This document shows positions 42,998 through 48,503 of a stretch of DNA of 64,000 bases, one piece after another (the stretch's first letter is position 1; every line of letters begins with the position of its first letter). The notes under the pieces were generated by a model that saw only the letters and a program-made list of their open reading frames with translations, was not told where the DNA came from and did no database searches. This stretch comes from Succiniclasticum ruminis DSM 9236 (GTDB lineage: Bacteria; Bacillota; Negativicutes; Acidaminococcales; Acidaminococcaceae), in the NCBI RefSeq assembly GCF_900112895.1, contig NZ_FONL01000002.1, positions 1 to 64,000 of the forward strand. The letters are read 5' to 3'. The position numbers and the translations under genes are program-made.

Positions 42998-43414
42998 ATG
43001 GATCAGAAATCTTTGGTATTAGTAAAGCCTGACGGAGTACGCAAACATTTAATCGGCGAGATCATTGCCCGCTTTGAACGCCGCGGCTTAAAGATCTGCG
43101 CGTTGAAAATGCTGGTTATGACCAAGGACCAGGCAAAATACCATTATGCGGAACATGTTGACAAACCGTTCTTCCCGGAACTGGAAGCTTTTATCACCGG
43201 CGGCCCGCTGGTTGCCATGATTGTAGAAGGCCCCAACGCCATTAAAGCCATCCGCACCATGATGGGCGTGACCGATCCCATCGAATCCACCCCCGGTTCT
43301 ATCCGCGGCGATTTTGCTCTGGATAAAGGTGAAAACGTTATTCACGGCAGCGACAGCCCGGAAGCTGCAGAACGGGAAATCAAAAACTTTTTCAAACCGG
43401 AAGAAATTTATTAA
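42998..43414 (+). CDS. ndk: Nucleoside diphosphate kinase
   Basis: 138 residues from the ATG at 42998 (AAAGGAGAG upstream). Transfers the gamma-phosphate of ATP to nucleoside diphosphates through phospho-His116 in [15 protein letters not shown]. Opening [18 protein letters not shown] and [10 protein letters not shown] are standard. It has its own terminator. Confidence 0.96.
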
Positions 43415-43419
43415 GATTG

Positions 43420-43451
43420 AAAAGCTCAGACATGTTTGTCTGGGCTTTTTT
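43420..43451 (+). terminator. Terminator after ndk
   Basis: AAAGCTCAGACA pairs with TGTCTGGGCTTT (one G-T pair) around a short loop, then a T run. Confidence 0.88.
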
Positions 43452-43571
43452 CCCCGTACTCTCATTAAACCTGCGGGGATGTGATATTTTGGTTCCATTT
43501 GGGAAATGGCAGAAATCATGTCCGCGTACCGTATAAACCGGTACAAGCAAATTGTAAGGAGGTTATGAAGT

Positions 43572-44102
43572 ATGTCGAAAAAAGCTGCAGTCTATACCCG
43601 TACAGGTGATAAAGGAACCACCGGTCTGTATACCGGCGAACGTGTATCCAAGTGCTCTACGCGCGTGGAATCCTATGGCAATCTTGATGAAATCACTTCT
43701 GCGCTGGGACTTGCCCGATCACTGGTAAAACGGGATGATGTACGAGAAGCTATATTTAATGTTCAGAAGCTGCTGATGTCCATGATGGCAGACGTGGCAA
43801 GCTTAAATCTGCCCCAGCCGTATATTACGGAAGAGCATGTGAAACTGTTTGAAAGCACCATCGACAAATTTGACTCGATGCTGCAGCCCCTGAGTCATTT
43901 TATTATTCCCGGGGATACTCCCGGGGCAGGCGCTCTGGATATCGCCCGTACTACCACCCGCCGCGCGGAACGCCAGCTGCTGCGTCTGAATGAAACGGAA
44001 CCGGTAAATCCGCAGCTGCTGATCTGCGTGAACCGGCTGTCAGACCTGTGCTTTATCCTGGCCCGCGTTGAAACGGAAGTAGGCGTAGAAGAGAGTAAAT
44101 AG
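43572..44102 (+). CDS. ATP:cob(I)alamin adenosyltransferase (PduO type)
   Basis: 176 residues. Transfers the adenosyl group of ATP to cob(I)alamin or a cobamide precursor. The PduO signature is clear: VYTRTGDKGTTGLYTGERVSK, RVESYGNLDEITSALG, then the helical bundle with RTTTRRAERQLLRLN and NRLSDLCFILAR. AAGGAGG lies nine bases before the ATG. It precedes the cobU-cobC group but is separated from it by a terminator. No cobalamin riboswitch was recognised upstream. Confidence 0.93.
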   Translation: MSKKAAVYTRTGDKGTTGLYTGERVSKCSTRVESYGNLDEITSALGLARSLVKRDDVREAIFNVQKLLMSMMADVASLNLPQPYITEEHVKLFESTIDKFDSMLQPLSHFIIPGDTPGAGALDIARTTTRRAERQLLRLNETEPVNPQLLICVNRLSDLCFILARVETEVGVEESK

Positions 44103-44188
44103 TTTTTTGTTACAATCCCCCCCTGGCCAATCCCATAGCAACGTTGCAGTAAAACACTAAATACGTTTACACTAATTTTATGAATCAC

Positions 44189-44218
44189 GCCTCCTGACAC
44201 ATAGTCAGGGGGCTTTTT
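44189..44218 (+). terminator. Terminator after cobalamin adenosyltransferase gene
   Basis: GCCTCCTGAC (44189-44198) pairs with GTCAGGGGGC (44204-44213; one G-T pair), then TTTTT. Confidence 0.85.
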
Positions 44219-44224
44219 CTATGG

Positions 44225-44427
44225 TATAATAAAATAGTTAAAGTTATTTTACCGGGTTGTTTTATGATATCTGTTCTCAGAAGCGAATTCACAGATAAAA
44301 CTGTTAAACACCGCGTTGACTGAGGGTAGAAATGACACCGGATAAAACGCAGTAACGGGCAGTTCGTCTGGTTCATAGATTATTATCTGCACATACCGTT
44401 GCGTCAGTGACAGGAGGATATGCTACA
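44225..44427 (+). promoter_or_regulatory. Promoter and leader of the cob cluster
   Basis: TATAAT at 44225-44230 is a likely -10 box, the -35 region (TAGTCA) being weak and lying in the terminator. The leader of about 190 bases before cobU shows partly complementary patches near the RBS (GTTGACTGA around 44314-44322 and GCGTCAGTGAC at 44401-44411), but I could not match the cobalamin riboswitch consensus. The rest of the 44103-44427 gap holds no gene. Confidence 0.35.
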
Positions 44428-45000
44428 GTGGGCAGGGAGAATAAACTTGTATTGGTGCTGGGCGGTGCCCGCAGCGGGAAAAGTGAGTTTGCAGAAAAAT
44501 ATGTGCTTCACGCCGGGAATCTCTGCGGTTATATTGCTACGGCAGAAATACTGGATGAGGAGATGGCGGAACGGGTTAAACTGCATCGCAGCCGCAGGGA
44601 GAAGAGATGGATCACCTTCGAGGCCCCCTATTTTGCAGAACAGGTTTTTCCCGAAGCCGGTGAACGTACAGACGCTATTTTATTTGACGATATCACCATC
44701 TATCTGAGCAACATGTTATATGGGAATAACGCGCCGCAAGGTACCACGGCTGAAAAAGCTGACGTAGTCAGAAATCGGATCCGGCGTTTACTGGATGCGG
44801 CAAGAGCCTGCGGCAGGACCGTTGTATTCGTTTCGAACGAAGTCGGCAGCGGGATTGTTCCTGATAATGCCATGGCCCGGGAATACAGGGATATTTCCGG
44901 CTGGGTGAACCAGCAGATCGGGGAAGCTGCCGACCAGGTTTTTTATGTGGTTGCAGGGCAGGCCGTGGATATCAAACGGCTTGCGTTTCGGTTTGAGTAA
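44428..45000 (+). CDS. cobU: Adenosylcobinamide kinase / adenosylcobinamide-phosphate guanylyltransferase
   Basis: 190 residues from a GTG at 44428, with AGGAGG ten bases upstream; the ATG in between is out of frame. Phosphorylates adenosylcobinamide and activates it with GTP for the nucleotide loop. P-loop GGARSGKSEFAEKYV, TAEILDEEMAERVKLHRSRR, DDITIYLSNML and FVSNEVGSGIVPDN are CobU hallmarks. First gene of the late cobamide cluster. Confidence 0.94.
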   Translation: MGRENKLVLVLGGARSGKSEFAEKYVLHAGNLCGYIATAEILDEEMAERVKLHRSRREKRWITFEAPYFAEQVFPEAGERTDAILFDDITIYLSNMLYGNNAPQGTTAEKADVVRNRIRRLLDAARACGRTVVFVSNEVGSGIVPDNAMAREYRDISGWVNQQIGEAADQVFYVVAGQAVDIKRLAFRFE

Positions 45001-45092
45001 CAGATTCTGTAAAAAATAAACAGGCAAAAGGAACGGTTATGTCGTTCACCCTGTGTCAGTGTTAAGCTACAGTTATGGAACGGAGCGCTTCT

Positions 45093-46109
45093 ATGTTAGA
45101 AGATTTATATATTGAATGCCCAAATGAAAATATCCGGAAGGAAGTACTGAAAAACTGGGAATCCGTGCTGTTGTCGGGTGAAGATTTCGGTATATTGCCA
45201 GGCTTGACGGCCGATTACCTGATGATGACGGACGGCCGTGGCATCCGGGGACTGAAACCGGTGATGCTCCTCATGTGCGGCGATCACGGTATCTGTAAAT
45301 ACGGCGTCAGCGCCTTTCCTCAGGAAGTGACCGTGCAGATGATCAACGGTTACGGAAGAGGAACCGCAGGCGCCAATGTCATGGCCCGTCATGCCGGGGC
45401 AGGCATGATCGTTGTGGATGTGGGCACAAATTTTGATCTGCATGGCTTCTCCCATGTAAGGCAGTGTAAAATAGCCTGGGGGACGGAAGACTTCACCCAG
45501 GGCCCGGCCATGAGTTACGATCAGGCTGTCGCCGCCCTGGAAACCGGTATGCGCATTGCCGATGAAGTGATTGACAATGGATGCAATCTCCTGGAGACCG
45601 GGGAGATGGGCATCGCCAATACCACGTCTACCGCCGCCATCGCGGCAGGCTTTCTGGATCTTCCGGCAGAACTGACCGTGGGCCGGGGAAGCGGTATCAA
45701 CGACGAAAGGATGAAAATCAAGACGGAAGTTGTCCGCAGGGGACTGGAAATCAATAAACCGAAACCCGGAGACGGGCTGGATGTGTTATGCAAGATGGGC
45801 GGTTATGATCATGCCGGGCTGGCCGGCATGATGCTGGCAGGAGCGGCCCGTCACGTACCGACCATGATTGACGGCGTGAACGCGACAGCTGCCGCATTGA
45901 TTGCGTACGGGATCAATCCCCGTTGCGCGGACTATATGTTATGTTCCCACCTTTCTTCCGATTTAAGCGCAAAGAAGATGCTGGAAGTGCTGAAGCTGAA
46001 ACCCATCGTCCATGCAGGCATGCGTCTGGGTGAAGGCACCGGCGCGTCTCTGGCGATCAGTATTTTGCGCTCCGCATTGGATACATACCGGGAACTGACA
46101 GGAGATTGA
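45093..46109 (+). CDS. cobT: CobT-family phosphoribosyltransferase, possibly ArsA-like
   Basis: 338 residues from the ATG at 45093 (GGAG eight bases upstream). Transfers phosphoribose from nicotinate mononucleotide to the lower-ligand base of cobamides. Seen: MCGDHGICKYGVSAFPQEVT, VVDVGTNFDLHG, GEMGIANTTSTAA, GRGSGINDERM and the catalytic Glu in MRLGEGTGASLAI. Missing: the N-terminal Lys-Pro-x-Gly-Ser-Leu motif of ordinary CobT, replaced by unrelated sequence (residues about 1-55). That motif is found instead in the second homologue at 46972-47835. The pair therefore looks like ArsA and ArsB of Sporomusa ovata, which act together and can activate phenolic bases. Plain CobT function is still possible. 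Confidence 0.85.
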   Translation: MLEDLYIECPNENIRKEVLKNWESVLLSGEDFGILPGLTADYLMMTDGRGIRGLKPVMLLMCGDHGICKYGVSAFPQEVTVQMINGYGRGTAGANVMARHAGAGMIVVDVGTNFDLHGFSHVRQCKIAWGTEDFTQGPAMSYDQAVAALETGMRIADEVIDNGCNLLETGEMGIANTTSTAAIAAGFLDLPAELTVGRGSGINDERMKIKTEVVRRGLEINKPKPGDGLDVLCKMGGYDHAGLAGMMLAGAARHVPTMIDGVNATAAALIAYGINPRCADYMLCSHLSSDLSAKKMLEVLKLKPIVHAGMRLGEGTGASLAISILRSALDTYRELTGD

Positions 46110-46110
46110 A

Positions 46111-46959
46111 ATGCCAGAAGAAAATCTGAAGACCAAAGGAACAGAAGTGGAAGAGGAGACCGGGCTCTGGAACCGGTTAAATATTCCTTTGCCGGAACGT
46201 TCCACAGGACCCTTCCGTTACCTGCGGGATTTCTTTACCTGCCTGGAATTTTTAACGAGGATCCGGATGACGAAACGGGAGGTCTGGTTCCCGGACGACT
46301 TTGCCCGTTCCGTTCCGTATTTCCCACTCGTAGGAGGAATTATGGGCGCCCTGATGTGGGGGGCGGCCCGGCTTGGGATCCAGGCTGGCTTTTCCGGTAA
46401 TTTACTGGGTGTGTTTCTGGTGCTGGCGGAGCTTTTCTTTATCGGCACGCTGATGTATGACGGCTTTATGGACACAGCGGACGGGATATTCAGCGGAAGG
46501 ACAAGGGAACGAAAGCTGGAAATCATGCAGGACAGCCACGCGGGTGCCAATGCGGTGATCGGCGCGGTCATCCTGATACTGGCCAAGGTTACCCTGTTCG
46601 GTTCTTTTCAACCTGCTGTTCTGGGTCCGTTGCTGGCTGCCATGTATATTATTACCCGGACGCTGATGGTGGTATATATCCTGAGATTTCCCAATGCGCG
46701 GCCCGGCGGTCTGGGGGAAATGTTTAAAACCGGCGGCAGTCCCTTCTATATGATACTTGCGTTACTGTTTTCAGCTATCCTGCTATTCCTGTTGGGACCT
46801 GTCTGGTGTAAGCTGGCTGTTCTAAGCTGTATTCCCTGTATCGCCCTGGCATTTTACCTCAAATGGAATCTGGGAGGTCTTACCGGCGATACGTTTGGTT
46901 TTCTGACGGAATGCGGTAATGTGATCGTACTGTTTTTGGCGTATTATTTTTTAAAATAA
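46111..46959 (+). CDS. cobS: Adenosylcobinamide-GDP ribazoletransferase (cobamide synthase)
   Basis: 282 residues, integral membrane. Joins adenosylcobinamide-GDP to the base riboside phosphate. The acidic metal motifs TLMYDGFMDTADGIFSG and LGGLTGDTFGFLTECGN are typical, as is FLTRIRM near the start of the membrane part. An N-terminal extension of about 40 charged residues precedes it. The start lies one base after the preceding stop, with AGGAGA upstream. Confidence 0.93.
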   Translation: MPEENLKTKGTEVEEETGLWNRLNIPLPERSTGPFRYLRDFFTCLEFLTRIRMTKREVWFPDDFARSVPYFPLVGGIMGALMWGAARLGIQAGFSGNLLGVFLVLAELFFIGTLMYDGFMDTADGIFSGRTRERKLEIMQDSHAGANAVIGAVILILAKVTLFGSFQPAVLGPLLAAMYIITRTLMVVYILRFPNARPGGLGEMFKTGGSPFYMILALLFSAILLFLLGPVWCKLAVLSCIPCIALAFYLKWNLGGLTGDTFGFLTECGNVIVLFLAYYFLK

Positions 46960-46971
46960 AAGGACACGGTT

Positions 46972-47835
46972 ATGCATATTGAAGAACTGATAACGAAGAT
47001 ACAGCCCCTGAGCGGCGATATCATAAAAGCAGCGCAAAAACGGTTTGATAACCTGATCAAACCGGTGGGGTCCCTTGCCCTGTTGGAGAGTATGACAGCC
47101 CGTTATGCGGGGATCCTGGGTTCATCGGATAAACAGTTGGTTGTGATCCCGGAGAACCGTCTGCTTTTGCTGTGGGGGGAAATGAAACATGCTGCTGAAA
47201 TTGAAACGGCGATGTTGAAGAAGAAAGCGGTTTCTGTTTACGCTTCCCATGTCAGTGCAAAAGTCATCCCGCTTCTGGTCATCGGGGAATCCGCTTACGA
47301 TCTTCTCGAAGAAGGCGCCATGCTCACTGCTGAATATATAGCGGAAGAACAATCAGGTCTGATTTGTCTCGGTACTTTTGAAAAGGAACTGCGGCCGGAC
47401 TGGCAGGATCTGCCGGAAGAAGAAGACGGCCTGGCATTTCTGGACAGACTGCAATGCCCTGCGGTAGCTGCCATGACCGGCGCCATACTGCAGGCAGCAG
47501 GAATGCGTGTTCCGGTAATGCTGGACGGTGTGGCGACCTGTCTGGCCGCTCTTGCGGCCTCCAAATTTAATCCGTATGTACTGCAATACTGTTTTGCGGG
47601 GGATGAATCTGCGGAAACGGGAAGCGCTGCTTTACTGCAAAAGCTTCAGCTCCAGGCTCCGCTACGTCTTTCCCTGCATAATGCGGAAGGCGTGGGGGCG
47701 CTGACCTGTCTGCGTCTGTTCGACGCCGGTATCAAGGCCTACAGGGAAATGGAGACTTTTGAAGAAGCCGGGGTGCATAATGAAAAAGAAGACTATTCAT
47801 TAAAAGTTCAGGAAGATAAAAAATTAAAGGGGTAA
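46972..47835 (+). CDS. Second, shortened CobT homologue (ArsB-like)
   Basis: 287 residues against about 340-350 for CobT. The N-terminus keeps the base-site motif AQKRFDNLIKPVGSLALLESM and the C-terminal half keeps MTGAILQAAGMRVPVMLDGVATCLAALAA and a form of the catalytic loop, NAEGVGALTCLRLFDAG. The GDHG and GEMGI-NTT motifs of the phosphoribosyl site are absent. These missing parts are present in the homologue at 45093-46109, and the reverse also holds. Inference: the two proteins form a heteromeric base-activating enzyme like ArsAB. The C-terminus is a charged Lys/Glu tail. It lies between cobS and cobC. Confidence 0.75.
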   Translation: MHIEELITKIQPLSGDIIKAAQKRFDNLIKPVGSLALLESMTARYAGILGSSDKQLVVIPENRLLLLWGEMKHAAEIETAMLKKKAVSVYASHVSAKVIPLLVIGESAYDLLEEGAMLTAEYIAEEQSGLICLGTFEKELRPDWQDLPEEEDGLAFLDRLQCPAVAAMTGAILQAAGMRVPVMLDGVATCLAALAASKFNPYVLQYCFAGDESAETGSAALLQKLQLQAPLRLSLHNAEGVGALTCLRLFDAGIKAYREMETFEEAGVHNEKEDYSLKVQEDKKLKG

Positions 47836-47903: not shown

Positions 47904-48503
47904 ATGGCAAAACTTTATCTGATCCGTCACGGGGAAACCGATTACAACAATGCTCTGCGTTTTCAGGGGCAGACGGATATCCCGCTGAATCAGAAAGGGA
48001 TCGAACAGGCAGAAAAAGCGGCAGACTTTTTCAGAGACATTCCGTTGCAGGCAATTTACACCAGTACGCTGATACGCGCCAGAACCACGGCGGAAATCAT
48101 TGCCGGGGTGAAGGGCATGGAAGTGCAGGAAACGGATGCGTTGCGGGAGATGAGCTTCGGCATCTGGGAAAACATGAACAGCAAAGATATCCAGAAGAAA
48201 TATGCGAAAGAATGGAAAGATTTTTTTGCCAGTCCTGCCAGGACAACGATCCCGCAGGGCGAAAGCATGTTGGATGTGCAGAAACGAGCCTATCCGACAG
48301 TACAGGAAATTTTAGACAGGTACCCGGAAGGTGATGTGGCTTTTGTGGCCCATGGCGGGATCATCCGCGTGCTGATGTGTACCATGCTCGGTCTGGACCT
48401 GAACCGCGCCTGGCATTTACATGTGGGCAACGCTTCCATTACGTGTTTCTACTATTGGGGACGCTCTTACACCCTGGATTATGCAAACCTGACCCGGTAT
48501 TGA
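47904..48503 (+). CDS. cobC: Histidine phosphatase, probable alpha-ribazole phosphatase
   Basis: 199 residues. Phosphoglycerate-mutase-like fold with LIRHGETDYNN, IYTSTLIRARTTAEII, the acid in REMSFGIWE and the second His in VAHGGIIRVLM. The fold is shared by many phosphatases; the call to CobC, which removes the last phosphate in nucleotide-loop assembly, rests on the cob neighbours. RBS GGGGGAA upstream. Confidence 0.85.
   Translation: MAKLYLIRHGETDYNNALRFQGQTDIPLNQKGIEQAEKAADFFRDIPLQAIYTSTLIRARTTAEIIAGVKGMEVQETDALREMSFGIWENMNSKDIQKKYAKEWKDFFASPARTTIPQGESMLDVQKRAYPTVQEILDRYPEGDVAFVAHGGIIRVLMCTMLGLDLNRAWHLHVGNASITCFYYWGRSYTLDYANLTRY

Follow-up and report, generated by a model that had tools for sequence, protein, structure and literature searches.

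Split CobT homologues around cobS in Succiniclasticum ruminis: a probable ArsAB-like enzyme for lower-ligand activation

ArsA and ArsB of Sporomusa ovata are CobT homologues that act jointly to activate phenolic bases for phenolyl cobamides, and only ArsA is catalytic. The N-terminal part of CobT that bears the KPxGSL motif (KP below) belongs to a small domain covering the active site of the neighbouring chain. In the dimer of Salmonella enterica CobT (SeCobT) the base pocket is made by both chains, with E317 as the general base and E174 holding a ribose hydroxyl (PMC9561151). Here we analyze a window of 64,000 nucleotides from Succiniclasticum ruminis DSM 9236 (contig NZ_FONL01000002.1, positions 1 to 64,000), a member of the Acidaminococcaceae, in which two CobT homologues, named A and B, are separated by cobS. 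We think that A and B join into a heterodimer of the CobT type that has one active site, composed from both chains, and activates the lower-ligand base of a cobamide (probability of about 0.7), and that, with good likelihood, the pair works like ArsAB. The motif pattern, the selection acting on B, the kinship of A with ArsA, and the existence of A–B fusions make such a heterodimer the most likely explanation.

Motifs, fold and kinship of the two subunits

Subunit A, the putative catalytic half, is encoded at 45075–46109 of the plus strand (344 aa) and was assigned to the ArsA lineage by structure-relative search and trees. Subunit B (46972–47835, plus strand, 287 aa) is a truncated CobT homologue, recognized by its match to 4hdk_B and by its predicted fold. 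They are the only matches of the genome to PF02277. Both were compared in an alignment of 140 chains, made up of 30 A and 30 B rows of the split type, 16 of each from tandem pairs, 8 of each from fusions, 31 canonical CobT and one other. The canonical rows from named loci were 23, picked by hand from at least 80 loci; the alignment does not include L165, in which two long frames overlap, or the fusions L092, L099 and L119. Where canonical CobT has LTK-PxGSL, A reads VLL-SGEDF, the site of the lost motif being LSGEDF at 45171–45188. The catalytic motifs of A are all kept: GDHG, followed by I (residues 69–72, 45279–45290), GEMGIANTT (residues 176–184, 45600–45626), in which E177 aligns with E174 of SeCobT, and GEGTGA (residues 319–324, 46029–46046), in which E320 aligns with the general base E317. 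B reads LIK-PVGSL at its N-terminus (KPVGSL, residues 30–35, 47059–47076), and K30, P31 and S34 do not vary among 25 aligned B sequences. B keeps none of the residues of the DHG and GEMGxxNTT motifs and has AEGVGA at the third catalytic site, which, judged from the sequence, is altered rather than absent. A first-pass annotation of this DNA had described the first homologue as keeping GDHG, GEMGI-NTT and GEGTGA while lacking KPxGSL, and the second as keeping KPVGSL while lacking the other two sites, and the alignment agrees on both counts. It had placed the start of A at 45093, which is a possible start in the same frame; the 344 residues are obtained from 45075.

The same complementary pattern is found across relatives. 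Complete catalytic motifs are present in 53 of the 54 A rows (split 30/30, tandem 16/16, fused 7/8) and in 4 of the 54 B rows (split 1/30, tandem 3/16, fused 0/8). KP is retained in every B row (30/30, 16/16 and 8/8, respectively) and in 11 of the 54 A rows (split 7/30, tandem 4/16, fused 0/8), with at least seven changes of state among the A rows of an 81-row tree. Canonical CobT rows mostly carry both elements (KP in 28/31, full catalytic motifs in 30/31). S. ovata itself presents a milder form of the pattern: ArsA reads LQSAGSLG, and ArsB reads LTKPLNSL together with GEMGLGG where GEMGIGN is expected. These losses can be rationalized within a heterodimer: if each KP serves the site of the partner chain, that of A has only the inactive site of B to act on and can be dispensed with, while that of B acts on the working site of A and is kept.

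The closest solved structure to A is chain A of 4hdk, S. ovata ArsA (E 6.8e-72; best CobT, E 1.3e-54), and the closest to B is chain B of the same entry, ArsB (E 2.3e-21), with Yersinia CobT at E 1.4e-17. The fold of B was predicted from an alignment of five sequences, the best of five models having a mean predicted local distance difference test score (pLDDT) of 71 and a predicted template-modelling score (pTM) of 0.79, and the other four a mean pLDDT of 50–62. The first structural matches of the best model are the ArsB chains of 4hdr, 4hdk and 4hdm (template-modelling score ~0.67, root-mean-square deviation ~7 Å), and CobT and ArsAB account for all 27 matches with E of at most 0.001. The ratio of non-synonymous to synonymous substitution rates (dN/dS) of B is roughly 0.060–0.103 in six of seven congener pairs, the seventh being unusable because its dS is saturated. 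Over seven congener pairs each, the values are 0.044–0.150 for A and 0.063–0.162 for cobS. On these ratios, B appears to be under purifying selection and is not a decaying copy.

Phylogeny brings A close to ArsA. Split-type A chains are monophyletic, with a Shimodaira–Hasegawa-like approximate likelihood ratio (SH-aLRT) support of 97 in the 81-row tree and 97/94 for their three rows in a more careful 37-row tree. They are sister to the S. ovata ArsA clade, not members of it (SH-aLRT 88 with 81 rows, 99/99 with 37 rows). The 81-row tree was built without 11 congeners and L070 and with only seven long B rows, whereas the rows of the 37-row tree and of a 58-row tree were picked by hand. One canonical row, L120, joins the A group at its base in the 81-row tree (93). 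The approximately unbiased (AU) test, with placements of A chosen after the first tree and split-type B left out of both sides, rejects joining A to the CobT of the class (p 0.0009) or to the CobT of other phyla (p 0.004). The first-pass annotation had named beforehand two outcomes that would speak against an ArsAB-like pair, namely A grouping with canonical CobT and B being a pseudogene-like remnant. A falls on the ArsA side, and the motif conservation and dN/dS of B do not fit a remnant.

The division of labour proposed here is also found within single polypeptides. Single-chain A–B fusions occur in Negativicutes at L058, L061, L063, L066, L068, L160 and L172, as well as at loci L092 and L099 of metagenome-assembled genomes (MAGs), in frames of 645–690 aa that contain no stops, that of L092 being cut by the contig end. 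In two Pectinatus species (L108:5866–7380 and L119:5869–7326), the fusion retains only ~120 aa of B, in which KP is intact and which consists of the KP helix, the C-terminal helix and little more. Such a shortened B may be a natural minimal partner and indicate how little of ArsB is required. The predicted structure of a Pectinatus fusion, from an alignment of four, was too poor to be used (mean pLDDT 44).

We propose the following mechanism. A would bind nicotinate mononucleotide and supply the catalytic glutamates E177 and E320. B would have no active site of its own, and its small domain with KPxGSL would cross the interface and close the base pocket of A. The resulting alpha-riboside phosphate would then be joined by CobS to the GDP-cobinamide provided by CobU, and dephosphorylated by CobC. 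The physical dimer, the position of KPxGSL over the partner's site and the catalysis are inferences.

Several points weigh against this proposal. The geometry of KP over the partner's site is taken from CobT structures rather than computed for this pair, and A–B binding and activity are predictions. Among the 26 A chains of the family that were aligned, 6 still have KP, so some members may not need B. The dS of B exceeds 1 in three of the six usable pairs, which makes its ratios rough. A passes the NCBIfam equivalog model of CobT, TIGR03160 (332.3 bits, cut-off 319.3), and B does not (123.4 bits); the model is also passed by two tandem-type ArsA (L069 and L169), so it does not separate ArsA from CobT. 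Finally, 29 residues are typical of ArsA, tandem and fused, and rare in CobT (compared over 29 of the 31 canonical rows, L060 and L071 being set aside, and 19 of the 30 split-type A rows). Split-type A shares 12 of them and lacks 17, including the GEA[I/T]G loop found in most tandem ArsA rows, its GEGTG loop being canonical in 30/30 rows.

Gene cluster and distribution

The pair lies in a cluster on the plus strand. It opens with cobU (adenosylcobinamide kinase/guanylyltransferase, 44407–45000; NF004469, 178 bits, cut-off 161), after which A is followed by cobS (adenosylcobinamide-GDP ribazoletransferase, 46111–46959), B, and cobC (alpha-ribazole phosphatase, 47904–48503; TIGR03162, 174 bits, cut-off 163). 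The assignment of cobS comes from matches below the model cut-offs (NF001278, E 2.4e-31; TIGR00317, 93 bits, cut-off 110). The successive spacings are 74, 1, 12 and 68 bases. Upstream, at 43572–44102 of the same strand, is a PduO-type cob(I)yrinic acid a,c-diamide adenosyltransferase (TIGR00636, 166 bits, cut-off 108). Regarding riboswitches, the window gave no Rfam match, and 43000–44600 gave none even at E up to 1. The order cobU-A-cobS-B-cobC is shared by all 22 family relatives whose locus was retrieved (13/13 congeners and 9/9 other family members), so the arrangement is not due to chance. The profile matches and these relatives thus uphold two further remarks of the first-pass annotation, that both homologues belong to a single cobU-cobT-cobS-cobT-like-cobC cluster and that an order split by cobS differs from the adjacent arsAB pair.

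PF02277 was matched in 38 of 41 genomes searched (the window genome and 40 relatives), two family relatives being among those without a match. A survey of the family covered 39 genomes of at least 90% completeness, the window genome included. PF02277 is present in 30 of them, always with both halves (30/30); the nine others are eight genomes of one genus and one more. That genus (g28, G041–G048) lacks matches to PF02277, methylmalonyl-CoA mutase and CbiD in 8/8 genomes, three cobamide markers at once. Phascolarctobacterium and similar members of the family turn succinate into propionate. Methylmalonyl-CoA mutase is encoded in 30 of the 39 genomes and goes largely together with PF02277 (29 with both, 8 with neither, one with each alone); since the 8 without both are a single genus, the link may reflect a single event. 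The mutase of Veillonella parvula, a maker of phenolyl cobamides, binds diverse cobamides (PMC6759758). CbiD, which marks the anaerobic corrin pathway, is encoded in 29/39 family genomes, that of the window among them; G058 and G059 have the split pair without CbiD, and G054 has CbiD without PF02277.

In the wider class, 243 of 252 genomes match PF02277, and many A matches lie in open frames of more than 600 aa among the matches listed. An extreme form is found in a Phascolarctobacterium MAG, whose A can be aligned only from about residue 60 of the window A onwards and whose B frame is 217 aa long. Some observations on single genomes can be added. In G023, G061, G052 and G053 the PF02277 match of A crosses one in-frame TGA, which is likely a match running past the gene's own stop. 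A class relative of family f7 (G031) has a 349-aa CobT homologue without KP and without catalytic motifs (L070:1101–2147), by eye like Veillonella-type ArsB, with no second homologue in the 7 kb retrieved; 11/11 f7 genomes of the class survey have two PF02277 matches, the G031 locus being the one inspected. One MAG of the family (G060) contains a split locus (L168) on a contig with a GC content of 0.38 and a Sporomusa-type tandem arsAB (L169) at 0.41–0.43. Tetranucleotide distances do not decide between coexistence of both forms and a binning error, and because of this possible error the two-form genome was not used as evidence.

The lower-ligand base

There is about an even chance, in our opinion, that the base is phenolic, such as p-cresol, the alternatives being a purine or a scavenged benzimidazole. 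BluB does not pass its cut-off in any of the 39 family genomes (3/14 controls pass); 36 of them have weaker matches, presumably to other nitroreductase-like proteins. BzaB (TIGR04386) does not pass in any of them either, a weak test as 0/14 controls pass, and the match of the window genome to this model is ThiC. With neither enzyme over its cut-off, the base is probably scavenged or a metabolic by-product. HydG is a tyrosine lyase that releases p-cresol. The window genome encodes HydG (L174:3806–5311, G000:C18; 916 bits, cut-off 312), which could supply p-cresol internally. ThiH is over its cut-off in 11/39 family genomes, that of the window not being one of them. HydG or ThiH was considered as a general internal source of p-cresol and discarded, since 11 of the 39 genomes lack both by score, the identity of HydG being verified for the gene of the window genome only.

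A variant of SeCobT, S80Y/Q88M/L175M, has been crystallized with p-cresol, according to PDB titles, and A has F81, M89 and M178 at these places. Reading the substrate from these residues was discarded as well. The same residues are common among canonical CobT rows (M178 in 29/29, M89 in 21/29, Y or F81 in 21/29), so they say nothing about the base.

That the heterodimer is real and its natural base is non-phenolic, adenine or a scavenged benzimidazole, is a substantial though lesser possibility. Split-type A is canonical, not ArsA-like, at the GEGTG loop already described and at residues such as R105 (19/19 thinned rows). S. ovata ArsAB has been crystallized with 5,6-dimethylbenzimidazole (PDB titles), a base that ArsAB can activate according to the review PMC8123684. 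The 11 family genomes without HydG- or ThiH-like genes point in the same direction. Against it stand the sister position of A to the S. ovata ArsA lineage, the HydG of the window genome with its p-cresol by-product, and the family-wide result for BluB and, for what the weak test is worth, BzaB.

Origin of B and comparison with known systems

The position of B in trees is much less clear than that of A. The ArsB-type chains group together with 100/100 support, to the exclusion of split-type B, whose branches are long. Placing B by phylogeny was given up, as joining it to ArsB (AU p 0.129), to housekeeping CobT (p 0.128) or to A (p 0.508) is rejected in no case in the 37-row tree, the first two placements being of equal standing and the third no worse. 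Moreover, the quick tree missed better trees, the one with B joined to ArsB scoring better than the free one. Since B is not placeable by tree, any claim of a second origin draws on gene position and on a missing tail. A C-terminal DG[PL]G tail is present in 24/24 ArsB-type chains, in 0/30 split-type B and in 0/31 canonical CobT. The slot between cobS and cobC holds a housekeeping cobT in two of the five housekeeping loci inspected (L159 and L161). In G030 both CobT copies flanking cobS are intact (L059), and the one in the cobS-cobC slot groups with housekeeping CobT (98/94). In the other three housekeeping loci (L153, L154 and L157) no cobS is found in the 6.5–12.5 kb retrieved around them, so this slot is not a fixed home of housekeeping cobT.

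It is possible, if doubtful, that the locus is a true arsAB operon with both halves orthologous to ArsA and ArsB, into which cobS was inserted later. The sister position of A to ArsA, the AU test that tolerates B in one clade with ArsB, with the better score of that joined tree in the quick analysis, and the three housekeeping loci without cobS would fit such a history. The absence of the DG[PL]G tail from all split-type B, the location of B where L159 and L161 have their housekeeping cobT, and the grouping of the intact L059 gene with housekeeping CobT argue against it. Position and tail favour, as far as sequence can tell, a housekeeping CobT as the source of B. We put forward, tentatively and as a proposal that may well prove wrong, that ArsB-like partners arose twice: a housekeeping CobT between cobS and cobC would have lost its own site, and an ArsA-type subunit would have come to depend on it for the small domain. 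The split pair would then be the only lower-ligand activating enzyme of this family of gut and rumen bacteria, which turn succinate into propionate, and the family would be a group of uncounted makers of phenolyl cobamides.

A reading of A as an ordinary CobT that works by itself, with B as a decaying duplicate, is very improbable: A does pass TIGR03160 (332 bits, cut-off 319) where B fails, and KP does persist in some family A chains (6/26), but B shows purifying selection in six of the seven congener pairs and occurs in all 30 family genomes bearing PF02277, KP is invariant in B (54/54) and mostly lost in A, and the AU test rejects A with canonical CobT.

Phenolyl cobamides have been given as 16% of the corrinoids in human faeces and 20–34% in the bovine rumen, with two known makers (PMC8123684). 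The census of arsAB, which took tandem cobT homologues both of 300–800 aa, counted 27 species, nearly all Negativicutes (PMC6461909), and Table 1 of PMC8123684 lists species following it. As the census rule is stated, split pairs and single-chain fusions are left uncounted. The main text of PMC6461909 does not mention fusions, Acidaminococcaceae or Phascolarctobacterium, and the text of PMC8123684 does not mention Phascolarctobacterium, Succiniclasticum, Pectinatus or Acidaminococcaceae. Split or fused ArsAB did not appear among the literature titles and abstract openings searched, a set with most subscription journals outside it, so a description may be published. If the pair is ArsAB-like, the Acidaminococcaceae of gut and rumen become candidate makers of phenolyl cobamides. 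Besides, the reciprocal loss offers a natural dissection of the parts of CobT that serve a chain's own site and those that serve the site of its partner.

S. ovata ArsAB (PDB 4hdk, 4hdm, 4hdn, 4hdr and 4hds) is the closest described system. Like the heterodimer proposed here, it is made of two CobT homologues, a catalytic A without KP and a B with KP. ArsB lacks NTT, as the window B does, and its chains are the nearest in fold to the window B; the window A belongs to the clade that is sister to ArsA. There are differences as well. The window genes are parted by cobS inside a cobU-cobC cluster instead of standing in tandem, B has only 287 aa, with a much deeper loss and without the ArsB tail, and the GEGTG loop of A is canonical; the genome has no PF02277 match other than this pair. 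The pair is neither in tandem nor composed of two chains of 300–800 aa, and thus falls outside the ArsAB definition of PMC6461909 on both counts. The probable ArsAB-type enzyme of the first-pass annotation stands in part: it holds for the complementary loss, for a single functional unit and for the kinship of A with ArsA (99/99), and is less clear for B, which is outside the 100/100 ArsB clade and without its tail, a joint clade with ArsB not being rejected (p 0.129). By the sequence features compared, the pair is not a full member of ArsAB. With CobT of the S. enterica type it shares PF02277, the catalytic motifs of A and a cluster with cobU, cobS and cobC. However, SeCobT chains are each complete, whereas neither window chain has KPxGSL together with all the catalytic motifs. 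The single-chain fusions (such as L061, L099 and L108) share out the work between their A and B halves in the same way, but within one polypeptide that has the ArsB tail, the B part being reduced to ~120 aa in Pectinatus.

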